Shown piece after piece: positions 6,681 through 35,095 of a DNA stretch of 35,916 nucleotides. The translations under genes were made by a program, and so were the position numbers. The notes beneath the pieces were generated by a model that was given only the letters and a program-made list of their open reading frames with translations, was not told the origin of the DNA and searched no databases. This DNA is from a bacterium (lineage in GTDB: Bacteria; Patescibacteriota; Microgenomatia; Levybacterales; UBA12049), in assembly GCA_021785915.1 (NCBI GenBank), contig JAJYEF010000005.1, positions 1 through 35,916 of the forward strand, written 5' to 3'. Within the stretch, counting starts at the first letter, position 1, and each line of letters begins with the position of its first letter.

Positions 6681-8357
6681 GTGCCCACTAGTAAATCTAT
6701 AAAGTACATTTTTATTTCAGGAGGCGTTATCTCAGGTATCGGGAAGGGTACTACGTCGGCTTCTATCGCACTTTTATTAAAATCCTCGGGCTATAAAGTT
6801 GCCCCAATAAAGTTTGAAAATTACCTTAATCTGGATGCAGGTACAATTAATCCTATAGAACACGGAGATCCCTTCCTTTGCGAAGACGGAACCGAAACAG
6901 ATATGGATATAGGAACTTACGAAAAGTTTTTAAATGAGGATATGGGGAGGGATAACTTTGTGACAATGGGGGGAATATACAAAGCCGTTATCGACAGGGA
7001 AAGACGTTTTGAATACGACGGTGAGGACGTTGAGGCAATCCCATATATAACAGATGAAATTACTAGCAGGATTATTTCTTTGGGAGAAAAGAAAAATGCG
7101 GATATCGTAATGATAGAGCTTGGTGGAACTGCGGGGGAGTACCAGAATATGTTCTATTACGAGGCTGCAAGGATTATGACCCTTAAAAATCCCGGAAAGG
7201 TTTTGCATATTCATGTTAGCTATGTTCCGACTCCTGGACATTTGGGTGAACCTAAAACAAAACCGACACAACTTTCCGTAAAAACATTAAACTCTTTGGG
7301 AATACAGCCGGATTTTATTATAGCAAGGGGCGAAAAAAAGCTCGACAGAAGGCGCAAAGACAGGCTAGCTCTTTTTTGCAATATGCACAAAGATGATGTG
7401 ATCTCAAGTCCCGATTTGCCGTCGGTTTATGAAATTCCGCTGGTTTTGCAGGAGCAAAAGTTGGATGAAAAAATTCTGCAAAAATTAGGTCTTAAAGTAA
7501 GGCCGCCTAAGCTAAAGGATTGGATAAAATTTGTCGAAAGCACAAAAAATGTCAAAAAAGAAATTGAAATTGCAATCGTCGGGAAATATTTCGGCACAGG
7601 AGATTACCAGCTTAAAGATTCGTATGCAGCTTTGTTTGATGCATTGGATCATGCTAGCTGGAAACAGGGCTTTCGCATAAAAACCCGTTGGGTAGATGCG
7701 GAAGCAGTTGAAAAAGAAGGGGCGGAAAAATTGATAGGAAGACCTAGAGGGTTAATTGTTCCTATCGGATGGGGTAAAAGGGGATCCGAGGGAATGATCG
7801 AAGCGGCATCTTACGCAAGAAAGAATAAAATTCCATATCTAGGCCTTTGTTACGGAATGCAGCTTGCAACTATTGCTTTTGCAAGAGACGTGTTGGGTTT
7901 CAAAGATGCAAACACCGAAGAAAATAACAAAAAATCAAAACACCAGGTAATACATTTTATTCCGGATCAGAAAGAACTCGTAAAACTAAGGGCTTATGGA
8001 GGCACGATGCGTTTAGGCGGATGGGATGCAAAAATAAAGAAGGGAACAAGGGCTTACGAAATATACAGAAAATATGACTCTTTTAAGGATAAAAAGAATT
8101 TAATAACCAGTGAAAGGCACAGACATAGGTACGAGTTTAACGACGACTTTGCAAAAGATTTTGAAAAAGCGGGGCTTGTAATAAGCGCAAGGTCGGTAAA
8201 GGAAAATCTTGCTGAAATTGTAGAACTCCCAAAAACTGTCCATCCATTTTATTTTGGTACTCAGGGCCATCCGGAGTACAAGAGCAGACCGCTGAGGCCG
8301 CACCCGATTTTTATGGAATTTATCAAAGCCTGTTCTTCGAACAAAAGTATTGAGTAG
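6681..8357 (+). CDS. pyrG: CTP synthase (divergent), GTG start
   Basis: Synthetase domain FISGGVISGIGKGTTSASIALLLKSSGYKV, TKPTQLSVKTLNSLGIQPDFI, and class I GATase GLCYGMQLA with terminal HPEY. Promoter-like TTGACG-17-TATAGT ends 5 nt before GTG. Confidence 0.92.
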   Translation: MPTSKSIKYIFISGGVISGIGKGTTSASIALLLKSSGYKVAPIKFENYLNLDAGTINPIEHGDPFLCEDGTETDMDIGTYEKFLNEDMGRDNFVTMGGIYKAVIDRERRFEYDGEDVEAIPYITDEITSRIISLGEKKNADIVMIELGGTAGEYQNMFYYEAARIMTLKNPGKVLHIHVSYVPTPGHLGEPKTKPTQLSVKTLNSLGIQPDFIIARGEKKLDRRRKDRLALFCNMHKDDVISSPDLPSVYEIPLVLQEQKLDEKILQKLGLKVRPPKLKDWIKFVESTKNVKKEIEIAIVGKYFGTGDYQLKDSYAALFDALDHASWKQGFRIKTRWVDAEAVEKEGAEKLIGRPRGLIVPIGWGKRGSEGMIEAASYARKNKIPYLGLCYGMQLATIAFARDVLGFKDANTEENNKKSKHQVIHFIPDQKELVKLRAYGGTMRLGGWDAKIKKGTRAYEIYRKYDSFKDKKNLITSERHRHRYEFNDDFAKDFEKAGLVISARSVKENLAEIVELPKTVHPFYFGTQGHPEYKSRPLRPHPIFMEFIKACSSNKSIE

Positions 8358-12391: not shown

Positions 12392-13087
12392 ATGGGCAAC
12401 CTGTTTATTGTAGCAACACCGATTGGCAATTTACAAGACATATCGCTTAGGGCTTTGGAAACCTTGGAAAACGTGGATTTTATCGCTTGCGAAGATACAA
12501 GAAGAGCCTTTTTATTAATAGGACGTTTTTTCAAAGGAAGCGAAAAGGAAATGAAGCGCAAGCTTTTTTCTTATTATGAAGAGAAAGAGAATGTTAAAAT
12601 TCCCCAGGTGTTAAATTTACTTTATAACGGAAAAAATGTTGCGCTTATCTCCGATGCGGGCACGCCCCTGATTTCCGACCCCGGATATAAACTGGTAAGG
12701 GAGTGCATAGAAAATAAGATCAAAGTTATATCCGTGCCCGGCGCATCTTCCGTGATTTCCTCGCTAGTTGTATCAGGACTCCCGACCGATAAATTTTTGT
12801 TTTTAGGTTTTTTGCCGCAAAAACCCGGACATAGACTAAAATTTTTGGAAAAAGTTAAGGACTCCTTAAAAGGAATTCAACCTACGGTGGTATTTTTTGA
12901 ATCTCCTCATAAGTTTTTAAAAAATTTAACGGATTTAGGATCTGTTTTCGGGGATATAGACATAGTGGTAGTCCGCGAAAACACGAAAATGCATGAAGAA
13001 GTATTTACGGGTAAAATAAGTGAAGTGGCAAATAAGTACGAAAAGGGCGTTAGAGGCGAAATTACAGTACTTTTCAACACTAAATAG
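12392..13087 (+). CDS. rsmI: 16S rRNA 2'-O-ribose C1402 methyltransferase RsmI
   Basis: MGNLFIVATPIGNLQDISLRALETL...ACEDTRR...ALISDAGTPLISDPGYKLV...VPGASSVISSLVVSGLPTDKFLFLGFLP. Confidence 0.95.
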   Translation: MGNLFIVATPIGNLQDISLRALETLENVDFIACEDTRRAFLLIGRFFKGSEKEMKRKLFSYYEEKENVKIPQVLNLLYNGKNVALISDAGTPLISDPGYKLVRECIENKIKVISVPGASSVISSLVVSGLPTDKFLFLGFLPQKPGHRLKFLEKVKDSLKGIQPTVVFFESPHKFLKNLTDLGSVFGDIDIVVVRENTKMHEEVFTGKISEVANKYEKGVRGEITVLFNTK

Positions 13088-14342
13088 ACTTAAGCTGCCT
13101 TTCGATTTGCAGAAGCCTGTTATATTTCGCAACTCTTTCGCCTCTTTGCGGCGCTCCGAATTTTACATAATCGGCGGAAACAGCAACCGCGAAATCGGCA
13201 ATAAAATCGTCGTTAGTTTCCCCCGACCTGTGCGATGCGATAATTCTTAAACCGGATTGCCTTGCCATTTCGACAACAGCCAGTGATTCTATAACCGTGC
13301 CTATCTGGTTAGGTTTTATTATGATTCCCGATATCGCCTTTTTATTGAGTGCTGTTTGGAGCCTATACGGGTTTGTCGCGGTAAGGTCGTCTCCAACGAT
13401 TAAAGTTTGCTGTGACATTCTTGCACAAAGTTGAGTCCATCCTTCCCAATCGTCTTCGGCAAGTCCATCCTCGAGATAGAGAAAATGGTAGTCTTTATTC
13501 ATCGCCTCATAAAATGCAATTAAATCTTTTGAATCAAGCGCCATAGCTTTATCTTTTATATGATACCGGTGTTCGGATAAAATGTTATTGGCTGCCGCGT
13601 CGAGTCCGAGGAATACGTCAAAACCGATTCTTATATTTGTTGTCTCTATCGCTTGTCTTAGCGCCTGTAATGCGTCCTGATTGGTGGCAAGCTTTGGAGA
13701 AAATCCGCCTTCATCTCCGATTAGGGTAGACAAATTATTTTCTGCAAATGTTTTTTTAAGCGTAAAGTATATTGTTGTTCCTAACTCCAAGGCTTCCTCA
13801 TAGGATTTTGAGGTTGCCGGAATAACGAGGAATTCCTGGAAGTCCAAATTCCCGGATGAGGCATGCTTTCCCCCGTTTATGACATTAAATGCGGGGGTAG
13901 GAATCTTTAGAGGGACTTTATCGTTTTTTACATACTCCCTCAGGTACATATAAAGCGGGAGAACCGAGCTTCTAGCCGATGCTTTTGCAACCGCGATAGA
14001 TACCGAAAGAATAGCGTTTGAACCAAGCTTGGATTTATTTTGCGTTCCGTCAAGCTGGATCATTTTCTTGTCAATATCTTGCTGTCTTGAGGCTTCCATT
14101 CCTATTAAGGTAGGGGCAATCAAGTTTGCGATATTTGAAATAGCGTTATTAACGCTTAAACCCTGAAATTTTTTTTCATCGTTGTCCCTTAGTTCGACTG
14201 CCTCATATTTTCCGGTTGAAGTTCCTGTAGGAACAGAGGCAATTCCGTATGCTCCGTCCGACAAAATTACCGTAGTTTCAATTGTAGGATGCCCTTTGGC
14301 ATTTAAAATTTGCCTTGCCAGAATTTGTTTAATTTTAGCCAT
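13080..14342 (-). CDS. eno: Enolase, divergent paralog 1
   Basis: LARQILNAKGHPTIETTV, GTSTGKYEAVELRD, NGGKHASSGNLDFQEFLV, IGDEGGFSP, LEDGLAEDDWEGW, IIKPNQIGT, ASHRSGET, RVAKYNRLLQIE. Catalytic residues appear retained. Confidence 0.9.
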   Translation of the reverse strand: MAKIKQILARQILNAKGHPTIETTVILSDGAYGIASVPTGTSTGKYEAVELRDNDEKKFQGLSVNNAISNIANLIAPTLIGMEASRQQDIDKKMIQLDGTQNKSKLGSNAILSVSIAVAKASARSSVLPLYMYLREYVKNDKVPLKIPTPAFNVINGGKHASSGNLDFQEFLVIPATSKSYEEALELGTTIYFTLKKTFAENNLSTLIGDEGGFSPKLATNQDALQALRQAIETTNIRIGFDVFLGLDAAANNILSEHRYHIKDKAMALDSKDLIAFYEAMNKDYHFLYLEDGLAEDDWEGWTQLCARMSQQTLIVGDDLTATNPYRLQTALNKKAISGIIIKPNQIGTVIESLAVVEMARQSGLRIIASHRSGETNDDFIADFAVAVSADYVKFGAPQRGERVAKYNRLLQIERQLKSI

Positions 14343-25668: not shown

Positions 25669-27393
25669 TTAAATTATGCGCAGTAACTCTTTAGCATTTG
25701 TTAAATTTGATTCTTGATCGTTTAAGCATAATAATGCTTGCTTTTCATCGATGGTTTTTCTGCCTTTTTGTTCCATACCTTCTTTTACAGCATTTTCGAT
25801 CTCTGAAATGGTTACCTCTAACGTTTCATCCAATTGATTTCTATAGCTGTAGATGCTTCTTGTAACTCTCTCTGAAAAATCATATCTTGATCTTCCACAG
25901 TGCTTATCAAATTCCTCTATGGTTCTACTTTTAATATTATCGTAAAGAAGTTTACCTGAAATGAATTTGGGAAGCTTAGAAACAATTGGAGTGAAAAACT
26001 CCACATCTACTTTTATCTCATCAAAAGAAAATTTAAACTCTACCTCATCGATTAAATTTTCCTCAGTTTCAAACGGTTTTGCTTTTATGTCAAACAGATT
26101 TGAAGAAAGCTCAATTACTTTATTCAGTGACTTATTCGTTTCGGTGGAAAATCTTCCGATGATAGATTTTAAGGACGTCTGAAGTTTAATTTCCTCTTCT
26201 TTTCTCCAAATGCTGAATATCTCTTTAATTTTTGTTTCCAGAAAAATATTTAATTTTTCGGCAAGCTGACTGCTTCCATGAGCTTTATTCTTTCCATAAA
26301 ATTCAGCAAGCTCCTCAAGAAGTAAGGGCAACTTTTCAACTTTTAGAATTTCTATATCTTCAATTAAGCTTTGATTCACAAGTTTTTGGACTTGTCCTTC
26401 CAGAATATAATCTATATCTTCTTTTTGCTGTTCTATATTTCCTATTTCTTTTTCAAACGCTACAACTTTTTCTTTTAGTAAAGATAGCGGAGTTTTAATC
26501 GTTTGTTTTTTTAGTTCTAGAATTAACTCTATCTCGTTAATTATGTATGACATTTTCTTCATCACTGACTCTTTAATAACTTTTGTCCTTTCTTTTTTCA
26601 GAAAAGAATTAAGTTCGGTTTCAAAATCCAAGAGCCTGCTCTCTTTTAACGCCTTTTTGTTATTTTTGCTCTTTCCATCCAGTCCCAGTTTCGAAGAAAG
26701 GGGATAAAACTTTAATTCTTTTACATCAAGGCTTTTTTCAACGACCTGTTTTGTAAAATCCAAAGATTGATTTCTTTCTTTTTCCTCAACTTGGTCGATT
26801 TTATTTTGAACAAAAAGTATTTTTCCCAAGTAATCTTTTATTGATAATAGGAATTGAAGCTCTGCTTGACTAATGGGTGGATCTGCGGTTACTACGAATA
26901 TGCCAACATCTGCCTTAGGTACAAAATCATAGGCAACATCAGTATTGTGTTTATATACCGAACCTACTCCCGGAGTGTCGACTATTTGAACACCTGATTT
27001 TAGAAAATCTGATTGATATTCTATTTCTACTTTATCAACCTGTTTTTTGTTTTCGGGATTTTTATTCTCGGTTACATAATCCTCCAATTCTTCGCTTTTT
27101 ATCTCAATTGTTTTACCATTTAAAAAAACAACGGAAATCTTTCTTTTATCTCCATATTTAATTATCGTCACTATTGAAGTTAAGGGAACAACAGAGGTAG
27201 GAAGGATACTCTCGCCAAGTAGAGCATTGATTAAAGAGGATTTGCCCCTTTTAAATTGACCTAAAATCACTATTTGAACTTCATTTTTTTGAAGTTTTTC
27301 AGAAAGAGCAAGTACTTTTTTACTTAACCCATCATTTTCTTTTACTATCTCAAGGCTATCAAGAATTTTTAATGAATTTATTAAGTTATCCAT
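25669..27393 (-). CDS. Dynamin-like GTPase (bacterial dynamin-like protein family)
   Basis: G1 GQFKRGKSSLINALLG, LPTSVVPLTSIVT, G3 VDTPGVGSVY, G4 FVQNKIDQV, long helical C-terminal half. Confidence 0.85.
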   Translation of the reverse strand: MDNLINSLKILDSLEIVKENDGLSKKVLALSEKLQKNEVQIVILGQFKRGKSSLINALLGESILPTSVVPLTSIVTIIKYGDKRKISVVFLNGKTIEIKSEELEDYVTENKNPENKKQVDKVEIEYQSDFLKSGVQIVDTPGVGSVYKHNTDVAYDFVPKADVGIFVVTADPPISQAELQFLLSIKDYLGKILFVQNKIDQVEEKERNQSLDFTKQVVEKSLDVKELKFYPLSSKLGLDGKSKNNKKALKESRLLDFETELNSFLKKERTKVIKESVMKKMSYIINEIELILELKKQTIKTPLSLLKEKVVAFEKEIGNIEQQKEDIDYILEGQVQKLVNQSLIEDIEILKVEKLPLLLEELAEFYGKNKAHGSSQLAEKLNIFLETKIKEIFSIWRKEEEIKLQTSLKSIIGRFSTETNKSLNKVIELSSNLFDIKAKPFETEENLIDEVEFKFSFDEIKVDVEFFTPIVSKLPKFISGKLLYDNIKSRTIEEFDKHCGRSRYDFSERVTRSIYSYRNQLDETLEVTISEIENAVKEGMEQKGRKTIDEKQALLCLNDQESNLTNAKELLRII

Positions 27394-27396
27394 AAA

Positions 27397-27467
27397 TAAA
27401 AAAAACTTCTACAAAAACATAGAAGTCATTAGCAATATAAGCCTTAAAAAGCGAACTTCATCGCTTA
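27397..27467 (-). promoter_or_regulatory. Fluoride (crcB-motif) riboswitch A with intrinsic terminator platform, upstream of the dynamin-like GTPase
   Basis: Minus strand: AAGCGATGAAGTTCGCTT TTTAAGGCTTATATTGCTAATGACTTCTATGTTTTTGTAGAAGTTTTTTTT. P1 AAGCG/CGCTT, loop GAAGT pairs with downstream ACTTC (pseudoknot), and the same ACTTC starts the ACTTCTA/TAGAAGT terminator. Confidence 0.9.
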
Positions 27468-27471
27468 TTGT

Positions 27472-27498
27472 ATTTTACAGCTTAATATATGATAAAAT
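27472..27498. promoter_or_regulatory. Divergent promoter pair 1
   Basis: TAAAAT on minus (27472-27477) and TAAAAT on plus (27493-27498), 15 bp apart, each just upstream of an aptamer. Confidence 0.7.
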
Positions 27499-27502
27499 CA
27501 AT

Positions 27503-27566
27503 CTAAGAGTGATGAAGCTCACCTAATTGTTCCTATGAACTGACAGCTTCTACGACTGTAGGAGCC
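27503..27566 (+). promoter_or_regulatory. Fluoride (crcB-motif) riboswitch B with RBS-sequestering platform, upstream of prenyltransferase-repeat protein
   Basis: AGAGTGATGAAGCTCACCTAATTGTTCCTATGAACTGACAGCTTCTACGACTGTAGGAGCC-ATG. P1 GTG/CAC region, P2 GTTC/GAAC, pseudoknot GAAGC/GCTTC, platform GCTTCTAC-GACT-GTAGGAGC masks AGGAG. Confidence 0.9.
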
Positions 27567-28391
27567 ATGTTTGATAAACAGAAAATCATAGACTACACGG
27601 AGGATAAACATCTAAAAGACGGGGGTTATTTTTTCGCTAAAGTCGAACCTTCTAGCGGTCTTGATACCTATTACGCTGTAAAAATCCTCAAAATGCTAGG
27701 AATGAAACCGCAAGACCCTTTGGGAGTAAAAAGATTTTTCCTCGATATGGAAGCTTCAGAAGGAATTGACGATATTACGGGACTGTATCTTAATCTAGAA
27801 ACACTAAAAGAGATTGGATACGATTTAACTCGTTTTAGATGCTATGAATCTATCGTTAAAGAAACACAAAATAGACATGGGGGATTTGGAACTGTTGGCG
27901 AACTCTATGTCGAGATTGCTTCAGAACTTGAAACAACCTATAGAGCTGTTGTAATTTCAAACGATTTAAATTGCTCTCTAGATAAAAATTCTCTTGTTGA
28001 GTTTATTTTTTCTTTTCAAAATAAAGATGGAGGTTTCGGAAGTAAAGGACTTTCTCTTCTTTCAACAACTTACTACGCTCTTTCAATACTTCAAGAACTT
28101 GGTGAACGGAAAAAAATTGCAAAAATTCCGAATTTTTTATTGGATATAGAAAGAAGCAATTTTTTTAACTTTTACTTAGAAGATATATTTTGGTTAACAG
28201 AAAGTTTACAACTCCTTAAACAAAAACCAAGAGATACAAAAACGATAATATCCTTTTTAGAGATGTGCATCCGGATTGACGGCGGATTTTCTCGTTCAAT
28301 AAACTTGGGAATTTCAACACTTGAGGATACATATTATGCAGTAACAATTCTTAAGAGATTGGAAGAATACGGAATACAAGAATTTGTCTAA
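27567..28391 (+). CDS. Prenyltransferase/squalene-cyclase-like repeat (alpha/alpha toroid) protein
   Basis: Repeats with DGGYF...LDTYYAVKIL, HGGFGT...LETTYRAVV, DGGFGSKGLSLLSTTYYALSILQELG, DGGFSR...LEDTYYAVTILKRL. Confidence 0.75.
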   Translation: MFDKQKIIDYTEDKHLKDGGYFFAKVEPSSGLDTYYAVKILKMLGMKPQDPLGVKRFFLDMEASEGIDDITGLYLNLETLKEIGYDLTRFRCYESIVKETQNRHGGFGTVGELYVEIASELETTYRAVVISNDLNCSLDKNSLVEFIFSFQNKDGGFGSKGLSLLSTTYYALSILQELGERKKIAKIPNFLLDIERSNFFNFYLEDIFWLTESLQLLKQKPRDTKTIISFLEMCIRIDGGFSRSINLGISTLEDTYYAVTILKRLEEYGIQEFV

Positions 28392-28402
28392 AATCGGTAA
28401 TT

Positions 28403-28633
28403 ATGAAAGAACAGCTTTTGATTTATTTTTGGAAATTTTTTCTTCCTGCCGAAAAAATTGAAGAAAAGAAAAAAGAACTTTTAATTAAAAAGATTAAGTA
28501 TCACGTTGAACACACATCGGGAGGAGGAATATTCTTTACGTTTTGGGAAAAGATAAAAATTCTTGGCTTTGTCGGTTTTTTAATTCTTATAAGTTTTTCA
28601 ATATTTTTCTTATTAGCTTTTGTATCAAAATAA
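28403..28633 (+). CDS. Small single-TM protein
   Basis: 76 aa; basic N-terminal half then ILGFVGFLILISFSIFFLLAFVSK; 11 bp after the preceding CDS. Confidence 0.6.
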   Translation: MKEQLLIYFWKFFLPAEKIEEKKKELLIKKIKYHVEHTSGGGIFFTFWEKIKILGFVGFLILISFSIFFLLAFVSK

Positions 28634-28634
28634 A

Positions 28635-29812: not shown

Positions 29813-31108
29813 TTAGAAGTTTCTGAAGCTAGACAGACCCGTTCCGTAATTAGTTTTTCCCACAAGCATTCTTTCGATTCGCATCAGTCTGTTATATTTC
29901 GCCACCCGTTCAGACCTTGCCGGAGCGCCGGTTTTCATTTGTCCGATACCCATCGCAACCGTAAAGTCCGCAATAAAAGTGTCCTCAGTCTCTCCGCTTC
30001 TATGGGAAACAACAGATGTCATGTTATTTTTTCTGGCAAGTAATACCGCATCAATCGTTTCGGTTAAAGTTCCTATTTGATTTAACTTTATTAAAACAGA
30101 GTTCGTAGTTTTATTATCAATACCTCTTTGGATTCGTTTTACATTGGTGACATACAAATCATCTCCGACAATTTGGAGTTTATCTCCGAAGGAAGCCGTA
30201 AATTTTCCAAAAGCATTCCAGTCGTCTTCGGCGAAGATATCTTCCATAGAGATAATCGGGTATTTTGAGGCAAGGTTTTGGAAAAAGCCTGAAAGATCGT
30301 CGCTTGTTACTGTTTTTCCTTCCTTGGTAAGGTTATATTTTCCGTCAACAAAAAATTCCGAAGCAGCAGGGTCAATTCCGAACGAAATGTCTCCTCCGAG
30401 TTTGTATCCGGCTTTTTGGATAGCTTCTGATAAAAGCTCGAAAGGTTCTTCGTTTGAAGAAACTTTTGGAGCAAAACCTCCTTCATCTCCAACGGTTATG
30501 GCATAACCTTTTTCCTTAATTATGCCTTTTAATATCTGATAAACCTCCGCATTCATTCTGATTGCTTCAACCACAGATTTGGCTCCGATAGGGAAAAGCA
30601 TGTATTCTTGAATATCGGTTGCCCAATTTGCGTGTTTTCCACCATTCATCACATTCATTTCGGGGATTGGCATAATGTAAGTTCCGTTAAAATCTGGGTT
30701 AAATTTAGTGAGGTATTCATAGAGTTCTTTCTTTTCTGATGCGCTTTCAGCTCTGGCAGCACTTAAAGAAACAGAAAGAATTGCATTTGCCCCAAGATTA
30801 GCTTTATTTTCAGTTCCGTCTAATTCAATCATGGTCTGATCAAGTTTATTTTGATCTTGAGCGTCTAATCCAATAACTGCTTGGGAAATCTTAGAATTGA
30901 CGTTTTCAACGGCTTTTAGCACTCCTAAACCGTTATATCTGCTCTTGTCTCCATCTCTAATTTCTACAGCCTCGTACTTACCTGTGGAGGCACCAGAGGG
31001 TATTGCATCCCATCCTTTTGATCCGTCTTCAAGCACGGTTACAGCCTCAATTGTCGGGTTGCCGCGGCTATCTAAAATTTCTTGCGCTTGAACTGATTTA
31101 ATTTTCAT
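29813..31108 (-). CDS. eno: Enolase, canonical paralog 2
   Basis: AQEILDSRGNPTIEAVT, SGASTGKYEAVEIRDGD, NGGKHANWATDIQEYMLFPIGA, VGDEGGFAP, MEDIFAEDDWNAF, LIKLNQIGTLTET, VSHRSGETEDTFIAD, KTGAPARSERVAKYNRLMRIE. Confidence 0.95.
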   Translation of the reverse strand: MKIKSVQAQEILDSRGNPTIEAVTVLEDGSKGWDAIPSGASTGKYEAVEIRDGDKSRYNGLGVLKAVENVNSKISQAVIGLDAQDQNKLDQTMIELDGTENKANLGANAILSVSLSAARAESASEKKELYEYLTKFNPDFNGTYIMPIPEMNVMNGGKHANWATDIQEYMLFPIGAKSVVEAIRMNAEVYQILKGIIKEKGYAITVGDEGGFAPKVSSNEEPFELLSEAIQKAGYKLGGDISFGIDPAASEFFVDGKYNLTKEGKTVTSDDLSGFFQNLASKYPIISMEDIFAEDDWNAFGKFTASFGDKLQIVGDDLYVTNVKRIQRGIDNKTTNSVLIKLNQIGTLTETIDAVLLARKNNMTSVVSHRSGETEDTFIADFTVAMGIGQMKTGAPARSERVAKYNRLMRIERMLVGKTNYGTGLSSFRNF

Positions 31109-31114
31109 ATTATT

Positions 31115-32443
31115 TTAATTATACATAACTTGTCTTAGGTTTTCGATGAATTCTTTTTGTTTATCTAATCTATCTTGTGGTTTTAAATTTCTTAATTCGA
31201 TTAGCGCTTGGGTTGATAAATTTCTAAGAGTTTGATCGGATTCCAAGACGGTTTCGTCCACCTGAAGTGCTATTTTATTAACTCCCATAAGCTTCATGCT
31301 CGAAAGGCTTCTGACTCTGGATAAGGCCACATATCCCATTCCGTGAGCAAATGACTTGCTTAAATCAATTTCTGCTAAATCAAGGCTCATGCCTTGAGAT
31401 TTATGAATGGTAATTGCCCATGCCAAACGCAAAGGAACCTGGCTAATTTCGGCTTTTAGAACATCTTTTTCTTCGATTTTCCAACTCGCGGGTTTTGCGA
31501 CTGCTTTAAGACCGGAGGTTGTTTTAACAACAGGGAATCCTTCCTCGTCAAATCCAATTATTTTACCAAGAGTTCCGTTAACATATCCTTGATTAAAGTT
31601 ATTTTTAACAAACATAACTAAAGCTCCTTTTTTAAGAATCAGTTTTTCTGGAGCAAGACAGCCTTTTTTAAGATTGTCAACCAGAGTTTGCTCTCCCCAG
31701 GACGTCATTTCGTAAGCTCTTGACTCCTCTTTTATTTTATCAAGCTCGAAATAATTAAGGCCATCTACGTCAACGTTATGCGTGTAAAGTTTGGTCGGAG
31801 TGATTTTCGCTTCAAGCTTTTTATTCAGTCTTGACATTAAAAGTCTTAAGGATTCAACAGAAACGTCATTTTGTCTTATTTCGTTCAGTATCTGTAAAAA
31901 TCTTGAGTCTTCCTGCCTATATTGTTCTTCAAGGTAACAAATTTTTACATCCATTTCCTGCCAGGATTGCGATTTATCTACAAAACTGTTATCATCACTG
32001 TTTTTGCTTACAGGCGGGAGCTGGAAAAAATCTCCGCACAAAATTACTTGCAATCCGCCAAAAGGAGCATCGCTATTTTTGAATACTTTGCAAATCTTAT
32101 TTACCATATCAAGCCTTGATGCCTGAAGCATGGAAATCTCATCAATAACTAGCACCTTGGTATTTGCAAATCTTTCTTGCAAATAAGGTTTAAGAAGGAT
32201 ATTACTGATATCATCGTCTTCAAGTTTATCCTTTATTCCGATACCCGACCATGAATGAATAGTTAGACCGTCTAGATGCGTAGCGGCAATTCCGGTTGAG
32301 GCTGTAACTCCAACTTCAACGCCATTTTTTTGTAAATACCCAATATACTCATTAAGAAGGTAAGTTTTTCCGCTTCCCGCAGCACCCGTAAGGTAGACAT
32401 TATAGCCCAATTTTAGAATATCGAAAGCCTCTTCTTGTGTCAT
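31115..32443 (-). CDS. PIF1-like ATP-dependent DNA helicase
   Basis: Walker A LTGAAGSGKTYLLNEYI, VGVTASTGIAATHLDGLTIHSWSGIG, VLIDEIS-like VLVIDEISMLQ, GDFFQLPPV, AITIHKSQGMSLDLAEIDL, GYVALSRVRS. Confidence 0.92.
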   Translation of the reverse strand: MTQEEAFDILKLGYNVYLTGAAGSGKTYLLNEYIGYLQKNGVEVGVTASTGIAATHLDGLTIHSWSGIGIKDKLEDDDISNILLKPYLQERFANTKVLVIDEISMLQASRLDMVNKICKVFKNSDAPFGGLQVILCGDFFQLPPVSKNSDDNSFVDKSQSWQEMDVKICYLEEQYRQEDSRFLQILNEIRQNDVSVESLRLLMSRLNKKLEAKITPTKLYTHNVDVDGLNYFELDKIKEESRAYEMTSWGEQTLVDNLKKGCLAPEKLILKKGALVMFVKNNFNQGYVNGTLGKIIGFDEEGFPVVKTTSGLKAVAKPASWKIEEKDVLKAEISQVPLRLAWAITIHKSQGMSLDLAEIDLSKSFAHGMGYVALSRVRSLSSMKLMGVNKIALQVDETVLESDQTLRNLSTQALIELRNLKPQDRLDKQKEFIENLRQVMYN

Positions 32444-32446
32444 TTT

Positions 32447-32953
32447 TCATTTTATCCCGTATTTTTCTTTGTATCTTCTGACTGCTTCGGAAAGCGGGGG
32501 AACGTTATATTTTGCGCGTTCCTCATCCGTTGTTGTTTCGTCGACAGTTTCCAACTCAGGTTCACCATTCCTGTTGGTCCTAAATTGCGTTCCGTATTTT
32601 TGCGGTTTGCCAATTGACAGTAAATATCTGTCCATTGTGGCAGCAAAAAGCCATTTTGCACTTTCATCACCCTTTTCTACCGCCTTCTTGGCAAATTCAT
32701 GTGCAAGGGCAAAGTCTTCAATAGTCTCTCCGTGCTGAAGTATATATGCGCCATGATGGTAATCAAGGCCCGTTTTAATCGAATCTAAATCCCTTAGGAA
32801 TAAAACCGCTTCTTTCCTTTTTTTGTCTCGTCTTTTAAGCCATGAAACATCCTTGATCGTGGCGAACTCCCAGTTTTTACTGGCTCTGTCTTCAACATCT
32901 TCTTTGTAGAAATGCTGAAGGATTGAAGATGTGTTTTGAACCTTGATAGACAT
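32447..32953 (-). CDS. DUF6624-like protein
   Basis: YHHGAYILQHGETIEDFALAHEFAKKAVEKGDESAKWLFAATMDRYLLSIGKPQKYGTQF. Confidence 0.6.
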   Translation of the reverse strand: MSIKVQNTSSILQHFYKEDVEDRASKNWEFATIKDVSWLKRRDKKRKEAVLFLRDLDSIKTGLDYHHGAYILQHGETIEDFALAHEFAKKAVEKGDESAKWLFAATMDRYLLSIGKPQKYGTQFRTNRNGEPELETVDETTTDEERAKYNVPPLSEAVRRYKEKYGIK

Positions 32954-32959
32954 AAATGA

Positions 32960-33310
32960 TTAAGGTTTTGAATATTCAAGAAACAACCTTTCCTTATCCT
33001 TTTGAAGCAGTCTTCTTTGCTCTTCTATATTTCTTAAAACCTGCTGAAGTTCCGGTTTCTGGCTGAAGTCAATAGTATTATTGATTTTTGACCATTGCTG
33101 AATAAGTTGTCTGTCGCGATTTTCAATAGCCTGTTCTATCAGTTGAAACTGAGTGTGCTTGCTAAAGGTATGCCATTCTTCAAAAGTAGCAAGAAATTCG
33201 GGATTATATTCTCCTATTTCTATTGCCTTTTGAAGAGTCATTAGTTGCCCGCCGAAAGATGGTTTTGTGCCCGGTGGAATTATTTCTATTTCATTAGGAT
33301 CGCTTGCCAT
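32960..33310 (-). CDS. Hypothetical protein (ORF track starts at TTG 33334; ATG at 33310 also possible)
   Basis: MASDPNEIEIIPPGTKPSFGGQLMTLQKAIEIGEYNPEFLATFEEWHTFSKHTQFQLIEQAIENRDRQLIQQ... Confidence 0.55.
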   Translation of the reverse strand: MASDPNEIEIIPPGTKPSFGGQLMTLQKAIEIGEYNPEFLATFEEWHTFSKHTQFQLIEQAIENRDRQLIQQWSKINNTIDFSQKPELQQVLRNIEEQRRLLQKDKERLFLEYSKP

Positions 33311-33355
33311 ATTCAAAATTGTAACTTTCTGCAACCAAAATTTATTATTATCTAT

Positions 33356-33898
33356 TTACACTATGTGTAACACTGCGCCAACAACAGATAGTCCTATTCC
33401 TACTGATATAAGGCCTATTGTCCAACGAAAAACATTTGCATAGATAATCCTTGCAATGACAAGACCCAAAAGCCCAAGAGTTGTAAGGGATACGGCAATA
33501 GAAAGTCCAGTTATGTTCGGGAAAAGTATATTTGTAGAAAGGGGTATAAGGGCACCTATAAAACCAAATATACAACTGATACCCATGCCGACAGATACTT
33601 CAACGAAGACTGTTTTGCCAAGGGAAGTTGTTGCAAACTTCCCGTGCGATACGATATTGAGTTGTTTTTCGGCGTTAATAAGTTCTCGTCGAAGCTGTAC
33701 ATATTCCGCTATGAAATAAATGAAAGAACTAGCTACGGCCGTAACAGCAGCGATGCGAAATGCCAGAGAATAATCTAATATTCCTCCTTCAATTATTTTT
33801 CCGGAGGTCAACGTTAATGCGGTTAAAACTCCGTCAACAACACCCAGCAACAGGGCAAATAATTGTTTACCAAGAATAAAATTAACAAAATTTTTCAT
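33356..33898 (-). CDS. VIT1/CCC1-like multi-spanning membrane protein
   Basis: LLGVVDGVLTALTLTSGKI, about five TM helices; overlaps the DUF211 gene by 4 bp. Confidence 0.65.
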   Translation of the reverse strand: MKNFVNFILGKQLFALLLGVVDGVLTALTLTSGKIIEGGILDYSLAFRIAAVTAVASSFIYFIAEYVQLRRELINAEKQLNIVSHGKFATTSLGKTVFVEVSVGMGISCIFGFIGALIPLSTNILFPNITGLSIAVSLTTLGLLGLVIARIIYANVFRWTIGLISVGIGLSVVGAVLHIV

Positions 33899-34179
33899 CG
33901 CGCTTGCTTTACCGGAGTAATTATTCGCTCTCCGGCACCTAATTGGTCAATACTATGTACGACAGCACCGGAATTTTCAATCGCAGTTTGTATTTTGCCA
34001 TAATCAAGATTTTGCCCTTCAATTGTAATATTCATGTCAACCGTTTCTACATCTATTTCAGCAACTTCAATATTGAATCCTTCTACACCTTTGACATTAG
34101 AAATTGCTTCGCCAATTTCCAGTAAGGAAGGGCGCTGAAGTGCTTTATCAACATCTAGTAAGAGTCTTCTAATATTCAT
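33895..34179 (-). CDS. DUF211 family protein
   Basis: MNIRRLLLDVDKALQRPSLLEIGEAISNVKGVEGFNIEVAEIDVETVDMNITIEGQNLDYGKIQTAIENSGAVVHSIDQLGAGERI; matches DUF211 as remembered. Confidence 0.82.
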   Translation of the reverse strand: MNIRRLLLDVDKALQRPSLLEIGEAISNVKGVEGFNIEVAEIDVETVDMNITIEGQNLDYGKIQTAIENSGAVVHSIDQLGAGERIITPVKQAR

Positions 34180-34187
34180 AATTGAGG

Positions 34188-34712
34188 TTACCTCTTTTCA
34201 GATACATAACGGTCCTGGCCTTCCTTAATAATCCTGTATGCCTCTTCTTTTTCCAGCCACCCGTTTATTTTTGCCCATTTACCTTCAAGCTTTTTGTATT
34301 CTTCGAAGAAGTGAACTATTTCTTTCTTATAATGTTCATCAATATCATTCACGTTTTGAATATTGCTGAGCTTAGGATCTTTCTCTACAACTCCTAAAAT
34401 TTTATAATCCTTCCCCGCGTTATCTTCCATATCCAAAGCGCCGACAACTCTAACCCTTACGACACAACCTGGGAAAAGAGGATCGGTAACAAACACCAAT
34501 ACGTCCAAATGGTCTCCGTCCTCGGCCCTTGTATGGGGCACAAACCCATAATCCGTAGGGTAAAAAACCGGAGAATGCAAAACTCTGTCAAGTCTTATCT
34601 CATCCAGGACTTCGTCAAACTCATACTTGTGATGTGAACCTTTAGGAATTTCGACAACGGCATTTATAATTTGCGGTGCTTTGTCTCCAAGCGGTATTTT
34701 TTCGTATGACAT
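34188..34712 (-). CDS. ppa: Soluble inorganic pyrophosphatase (family I)
   Basis: VVEIPKGSHHKYEFDE, RVLHSPVFYPTDYGFVPHT, EDGDHLDVLVFV, GALDMEDNAGKDYKIL. ATG at 34712 (MSYEKIPLG) preferred; the ORF-track start at 34760 lies inside the riboswitch. Confidence 0.95.
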   Translation of the reverse strand: MSYEKIPLGDKAPQIINAVVEIPKGSHHKYEFDEVLDEIRLDRVLHSPVFYPTDYGFVPHTRAEDGDHLDVLVFVTDPLFPGCVVRVRVVGALDMEDNAGKDYKILGVVEKDPKLSNIQNVNDIDEHYKKEIVHFFEEYKKLEGKWAKINGWLEKEEAYRIIKEGQDRYVSEKR

Positions 34713-34783
34713 AAAAAAACTCCTATCAAGTTTGACAGAAGCCATTAGCTTTCGAGGCAATTAGAAGCGAGCTTCATCGCTTA
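34713..34783 (-). promoter_or_regulatory. Fluoride (crcB-motif) riboswitch C with terminator/RBS-masking platform, upstream of ppa
   Basis: Minus strand: AAGCGATGAAGCTCGCTTCTAATTGCCTCGAAAGCTAATGGCTTCTGTCAAACTTGATAGGAGTTTTTTT-ATG. P1 AAGCG/CGCTT, pseudoknot GAAGC/GCTTC; CTTCTGTC...GATAGGAG stem plus U7 forms a terminator whose 3' arm contains the SD AGGAG. Confidence 0.93.
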
Positions 34784-34788
34784 ATTTT

Positions 34789-34815
34789 ATTTTACATCCT
34801 ATTATGTGTTAAAAT
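34789..34815. promoter_or_regulatory. Divergent promoter pair 2
   Basis: TAAAAT on minus (34789-34794) and plus (34810-34815), 15 bp apart, same geometry as pair 1. Confidence 0.7.
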
Positions 34816-34822
34816 CAAGTGT

Positions 34823-34879
34823 AAGTGATGGAGTTCACTCAAAACCGCATTCTTTGCTGATAACTTCTAAAAGTCTACA
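34823..34879 (+). promoter_or_regulatory. Fluoride (crcB-motif) riboswitch D upstream of the 71-aa membrane protein
   Basis: AAGTGATGGAGTTCACTCAAAACCGCATTCTTTGCTGATAACTTCTAAAAGTCTACA-ATG. P1 AGTG/CACT, P2 GCA/TGC, pseudoknot GGAGTT/AACTTC (one G-U); platform ACTT-CTAA-AAGT is weak. Confidence 0.87.
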
Positions 34880-35095
34880 ATGAACAATCTATCTTTATAT
34901 TTGCTTTTAGGAACAATGTTCGGATTTCTTGGAGGATTGGCTGCTTTTTTGATAACCTACGAGGAATACCAGCATCATTTCGTTGATAAAGGAAAGGCTT
35001 TAAACCATAGTATTGAAACCGGAGTTTTCGCATTCATTGTTTTCTTAGGTATTTCTTTGGCGGTTGGGTTGCTTTTTACCTACATCAAATTTTAA
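34880..35095 (+). CDS. 71-aa two-TM membrane protein under riboswitch D
   Basis: MNNLSLYLLLGTMFGFLGGLAAFLITYEEYQHHFVDKGKALNHSIETGVFAFIVFLGISLAVGLLFTYIKF; two hydrophobic segments. Confidence 0.75.
   Translation: MNNLSLYLLLGTMFGFLGGLAAFLITYEEYQHHFVDKGKALNHSIETGVFAFIVFLGISLAVGLLFTYIKF

Follow-up and report, generated by a model that had tools for sequence, protein, structure and literature searches.

Two opposed fluoride aptamers between divergent genes

Positions 34713-34879 of the window (the whole stretch of DNA analysed, 35,916 nucleotides) are exactly the gap that separates the start codons of a divergent gene pair. On the minus strand lies a family I inorganic pyrophosphatase (PPase, 34188-34712, ATG at 34712; PF00719, E 1.4e-55), and on the plus strand a 71-aa two-helix membrane protein, P0001 (34880-35095, ATG at 34880). 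Each side of the gap matches the fluoride riboswitch family RF01734, for which the curated Rfam gathering cut-off is 34 bits: aptamer C (34729-34790, minus strand) scores 34.8 bits and aptamer D (34815-34876, plus strand) 42.5 bits, the best aptamer match of the four in the window. The other two, A (27413-27474, minus strand) and B (27499-27559, plus strand), form pair 1 and stay below the cut-off (32.2 bits, E 6e-6, and 19.6 bits, E 0.083, respectively), B having the same geometry and an anti-pseudoknot hairpin.

A pattern describing the two-sided aptamer core was found at exactly two sites in the window, pair 1 and pair 2 (C and D), and in 0 of 100 shuffles, and on these counts and the Rfam scores a chance match for C and D was rejected. 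The rest of the genome held no further convincing fluoride aptamer copy. Judged by sequence, C and D are real fluoride riboswitch aptamers of the known class, from which we infer that they bind fluoride and raise expression.

PPase opens a row of seven minus-strand genes with -4 to 21 bp between neighbors. Next come a DUF211 protein (33895-34179; PF02680, E 4.5e-30), a membrane protein related to TIGR00267 (33356-33898; 39 bits, below the cut-off) with a weak match to the VIT1 family (PF01988, E 0.026), then orf124, a DUF6624-like protein and a PIF1 helicase (31115-33334, same strand, annotated with Pfam, gaps of 21, 6 and 3 bp) and, 6 bp after the helicase gene, a second enolase (29813-31108; TIGR01060, 588 bits), which is 42% identical to the other enolase of the window (13080-14342). 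C thus heads an apparent seven-gene operon reaching down to the second enolase, its extent being judged from the short gaps. PPase and enolase are the classic fluoride-inhibited enzymes. Both have been reported as fluoride riboswitch targets, and divalent cation transporters have been reported as enriched in operons with fluoride exporters (PMC11139923).

The protein under D, P0001, was modeled as two helices (residues 3-33 and 37-68, pLDDT 92). It had no match in Pfam or NCBIfam, and a structure search with it returned no significant match. A start at 34916, behind a ribosome-binding-like AGGA, was set aside, the homologs favoring 34880.

In pair 1, A precedes a dynamin-like GTPase (25669-27393, minus strand; PF00350, E 1.6e-29) and B a prenyltransferase alpha-alpha toroid protein (27567-28391, plus strand; PF00432, E 2.7e-15). 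A small ORF with one hydrophobic stretch (28404-28634, plus strand) starts 12 nt after the toroid-protein gene and is possibly co-transcribed under B.

Pairing and covariation of the leaders

In the four copies of the window, P1 and the pseudoknot pair throughout, except for two mismatches in the outer part of P1, one in B and one in D. A sequence-only reading of this DNA had described P1, P2 and pseudoknot sequences that differ between the pairs and keep pairing. The pairing stood; the difference stood in part, as A and C share an identical P1 (AAGCG/CGCUU). The second stem folds in 13 of the 14 leaders collected for comparison and is not clear in C.

These 14 leaders comprise the four of the window, eight from other genomes of the phylum and two from a divergent pair in Acidimicrobiales. 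MAFFT placed the second stem wrongly when given whole aptamers, and the covariation count was therefore restricted to P1 and the pseudoknot, taken as ungapped segments. There, 97.9% of the cells are in standard pairs, and five pairs show two-sided change. None of 500 shuffles reached the covariation score, which was lost when the partner columns were slid; the shuffles leave relatedness in, so this result is support and not a probability. The check with homologs asked for by the sequence-only reading thus found the paired bases covarying, and its use of covariation as evidence holds at the scale of 14 leaders. Its further wording, that the four copies are by themselves strong internal evidence, was overstated, because they give just two fully compensated positions (C-G/U-A in P1 and U-A/C-G in the pseudoknot).

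The structure of RF01734, with P1, the second stem, the pseudoknot from loop to 3′ strand and covariation, was therefore recovered, and the divergent fluoride riboswitch pair proposed for 34713-34879 is borne out by the Rfam scores, the kept P1 and pseudoknot pairing and the covariation. Any two aptamers of one class that point away from each other will make up an imperfect inverted repeat, and such a repeat might bind a protein regulator with no riboswitch involved. Covariation at the RNA level that includes the pseudoknot, the Rfam scores and the occurrence elsewhere of single, unpaired copies followed by terminators make this reading extremely improbable.

Expression platforms

In all of the 14 leaders but D, the 3′ pseudoknot strand is also the start of a hairpin (13 leaders), which is weak in relative G172. 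In C, this hairpin (34718-34743, minus strand) came from a terminator scan and folds at -11.8 kcal/mol (z -4.26). Its 5′ arm is the pseudoknot strand, its 3′ arm contains the Shine-Dalgarno sequence AGGAG, and a U run follows directly before the PPase ATG. As the 3′ arm of the terminator doubles as the ribosome-binding site, transcription and translation could both be blocked. The terminator hairpin of A (27405-27426, minus strand; z -3.95) is also followed by a U run, and the hairpin of B (27546-27565, plus strand; -10.8 kcal/mol, z -3.41) hides the Shine-Dalgarno GGAG before the ATG at 27567. Leaders A, B and C thus each carry a platform mutually exclusive with the pseudoknot. In leader D, neither an anti-pseudoknot hairpin nor another exclusive platform was found (best long-range fold z -1.42), nor was a clear Shine-Dalgarno sequence seen before the ATG; D belongs to the riboswitch class by its aptamer.

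In the mechanism that we propose, the downstream hairpin would capture the 3′ pseudoknot strand when fluoride is absent; in C, where this hairpin is a terminator, the ribosome-binding site would be hidden as well. Once fluoride is bound as a Mg-fluoride complex, the pseudoknot would hold, the hairpin would fail to form and both sides would be switched on. On the C side this would yield pyrophosphatase and probably the whole operon down to the second enolase, and on the D side the small two-helix membrane protein.

An asymmetric pair would result if only C (and A and B) worked and D were a decaying or ligand-binding-only aptamer, left behind after the two-helix gene moved out of the PPase operon. 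D alone among the 14 leaders lacks the hairpin, and in relatives G033 and G657 the homolog of the two-helix gene does sit behind PPase under one switch. Yet D is the highest-scoring aptamer of the four and keeps its P1 and pseudoknot pairs except the outermost, so it is under constraint, and we consider the asymmetric arrangement rather unlikely. Control of both sides by fluoride remains our preferred reading.

The predicted promoter region between the aptamers

Direct reading of both pairs agreed with the earlier claim that pair 2 repeats the layout of pair 1: opposed TAAAAT hexamers lie 15 bp apart at 34789-34794 and 34810-34815 in pair 2 and at 27472-27477 and 27493-27498 in pair 1. The constant flanks noted before, TTTTACA on one side and TAAAATCAA on the other, are indeed there, and both can be read as promoter elements. 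The minus-strand -10 has its upstream end in TTTTACA. In TAAAATCAA, the plus-strand -10 and the minus-strand -35 (TTGATT, the complement of AATCAA) overlap, which explains why TAAAATCAA is constant in both pairs.

The predicted promoter of C (34789-34818, minus strand) has a -35 TTGATT at 34818-34813, an 18-bp spacer and a -10 TAAAAT at 34794-34789, with a predicted start near 34782; a consensus scan found the same TTGATT-18 bp-TAAAAT spacing in both pairs. The excess of such sites in the region is small (4, compared to 1.0 ± 0.9 in shuffles). The predicted plus-strand promoters are of the extended -10 type (TGNTAAAAT), with a -35 that is weak or absent; in D, the predicted extended -10, TGTTAAAAT, was read directly at 34807-34815 (plus strand), which would place the start near 34822. 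Both strands carry candidate promoter elements with the same spacing in the two pairs, identified as consensus matches.

The -10 hexamer of D lies 11 nt before GATG, as in its homologs. More generally, of the 15 fluoride leaders examined, 12 have a -10-like TANNNT hexamer that ends 9-12 nt ahead of GATG, compared to 0-7 of 15 at other offsets, and from this position transcripts probably begin at P1. Each RNA of the pair would then probably start at its own aptamer, and the predicted starts of C and D, ~40 bp apart, leave the two RNAs without overlap. The two predicted sigma-70-type promoters would overlap back to back within about 40 bp. Because the -35 on one side shares bases with the opposite -10, it is unlikely that two polymerases could be bound together.

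Fluoride switches and their genes in related genomes

The aptamer pattern was searched in 374 genomes of the class and gave 10 matches, four of them the window's own; the reversed control gave none. In G033 and at two loci of G657, a single switch and terminator precede PPase, with a homolog of P0001 directly behind it. In G500 and G585, a switch and terminator stand ahead of a dynamin-like GTPase 54-62% identical to that of the window. Two genomes belong to other families of the phylum: in G172, the switch is directly ahead of a toroid protein (38% identity), and in G303, it is ahead of a toroid stub followed by a P0001 homolog. These six genomes of the phylum thus have the same gene families (PPase with the two-helix protein, dynamin-like GTPase and toroid protein) under homologous switches. 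More distant P0001 homologs in G007, G245 and G315 had no matching switch adjoining.

The loci of G033, G657, G500 and G585 (L147, L160, L165, L158 and L163) are fluoride switches with terminators that were picked up by the simple core pattern. At L158 and L163, which belong to two other families of the class, the dynamin-like GTPase gene is directly behind the switch; in the literature searched, no paper mentioned dynamin together with a fluoride switch. At L145 (1570-1737), a stub of 55 aa is what is left of the toroid-protein gene, with the switch on one side of it and the gene for the two-helix protein on the other. The switch of G033 went unreported by Rfam searches that covered this genome, and RF01734 may therefore miss some fluoride switches of the kind that this phylum carries. 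Weak Rfam matches in relatives (L009-L016) were set aside: L014 falls within a coding region ahead of PPase in G007, and the stricter pattern did not recover the rest.

CrcB was found above the cut-off in just two switch-bearing genomes, G027 and G313, where the switch accompanies the usual crcB. It was not found above the cut-off in G000, G033, G657, G500, G585 or G172, and G303 had a sub-threshold match of 17 bits. In the genome of the window, searches found neither CrcB nor CLC. Searches of the 40 nearest genomes did not find the dynamin and TIGR00267 genes, and parts of the fluoride island may therefore have come by transfer.

A bolder proposal is that several members of the phylum, probably Patescibacteria to judge from the small genomes sampled, run an exporter-less (CrcB-free) fluoride defense by riboswitches. 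The D protein would then be a new kind of membrane protein conferring fluoride tolerance, perhaps by export, and the dynamin-like GTPase and the toroid protein would be further new factors in the response. We regard this as speculative and improbable as a whole.

Origin of the two pairs

Among the matches listed by a pair-pattern scan of named genomes, one true divergent pair was found, L063 of Acidimicrobiales (JASHRK010000080.1). This fluoride pair (7680-7800) has hairpins over ribosome-site-like sequence on both sides, and one side leads to an enolase. The other matches listed in the genome and viral pattern scans were rejected as pairs, the 3′ pseudoknot strand being missing on either side. 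The divergent layout is thus rare among the matches listed and has probably arisen more than once.

The sequence-only reading had suggested that the whole bidirectional module was duplicated, and the evidence is divided. Pairs 1 and 2 align better in the same orientation (166) than reversed (129), and with the -10 boxes excluded, the spacers between the aptamers are identical at 14 of 19 positions (P about 7e-5, assuming independence) or, with AATCAA left out too, at 11 of 16 (P 0.0014). Against this, the four target genes of A-D are unrelated, and the aptamers (66% identity for A and C, 62% for B and D) are no closer to each other than to those of other genomes. Local duplication of the regulatory module is plausible from these comparisons, with convergence under promoter constraint as a possible alternative.

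The same aptamer distances, together with the unrelated Acidimicrobiales pair, by which the layout can arise repeatedly, would fit two independent head-to-head switches in each pair, with no coupling through a shared promoter and a separate origin for each pair. The 15-bp geometry common to both pairs and the likeness of their spacers beyond the -10 boxes argue against this. So does the -35/-10 overlap between the sides, which would make two polymerases at once unlikely; for E. coli bidirectional promoters, a bound polymerase is described as excluding a second one, although basal transcription in that study was too low for the two to compete (PMC12825309). Independence of the switches is quite possible, if short of an even chance.

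Discussion

Our favored reading, in which we have high confidence, is that 34713-34879 is a compact divergent control module, fluoride-ON on both sides, within a four-switch fluoride tolerance island. Pairs 1 and 2 would make up this island, in a small genome without CrcB and CLC exporters. The aptamers, their covariation, the hairpins of C, A and B, the gene order and the recurrence of the same families under switches elsewhere are observed; from this anatomy we infer function, ligand and the coupling of the two sides, as well as promoter activity, ON direction, operon extent and the mechanism of D. With this island, the bacterium, which has no known fluoride exporter, seems able to induce fluoride-sensitive enzymes and several unfamiliar proteins as fluoride rises. 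In this way, about 170 bp can suffice for a reduced genome to bring a pair of transcripts under a single class of ion sensor. The families that recur under switches where CrcB was undetected are a small set of new candidate genes for the fluoride response, open to testing, from a group of which most members are uncultured.

The riboswitch class is known; the arrangement and the regulon are new. A 2022 review places fluoride among the classes not found in tandem arrangements (PMC9481103), and the literature searched gave no case in which riboswitches of opposite direction, responding to a single ligand, are both served by one short promoter region. Bidirectional promoters of E. coli (PMC12825309) offer a parallel to the predicted layout: their overlapping, pseudo-symmetrical elements drive divergent transcription, and a polymerase bound on one side excludes the other. 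In the present region, however, the overlap is between the predicted -35 of one promoter and the -10 of its opposite, the predicted starts are ~40 bp apart, and control would come after initiation, through RNA switches on both sides.

Within the phylum, the crcB switch of G027 (L008), from the same family, has the same aptamer type and a terminator, but it is a single switch facing one direction, with the canonical exporter as its target. Compared to RF01734 (the crcB motif) at large, the leaders described here share the aptamer sequence and structure, the conserved core, the pseudoknot, platforms that terminate transcription or hide the ribosome-binding site (in A, B and C), and the PPase and enolase targets. 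They differ from typical members in lying back to back and diverging from one promoter region, in a genome with no crcB, and in adding a two-helix membrane protein, a dynamin-like GTPase and a toroid protein to the targets.
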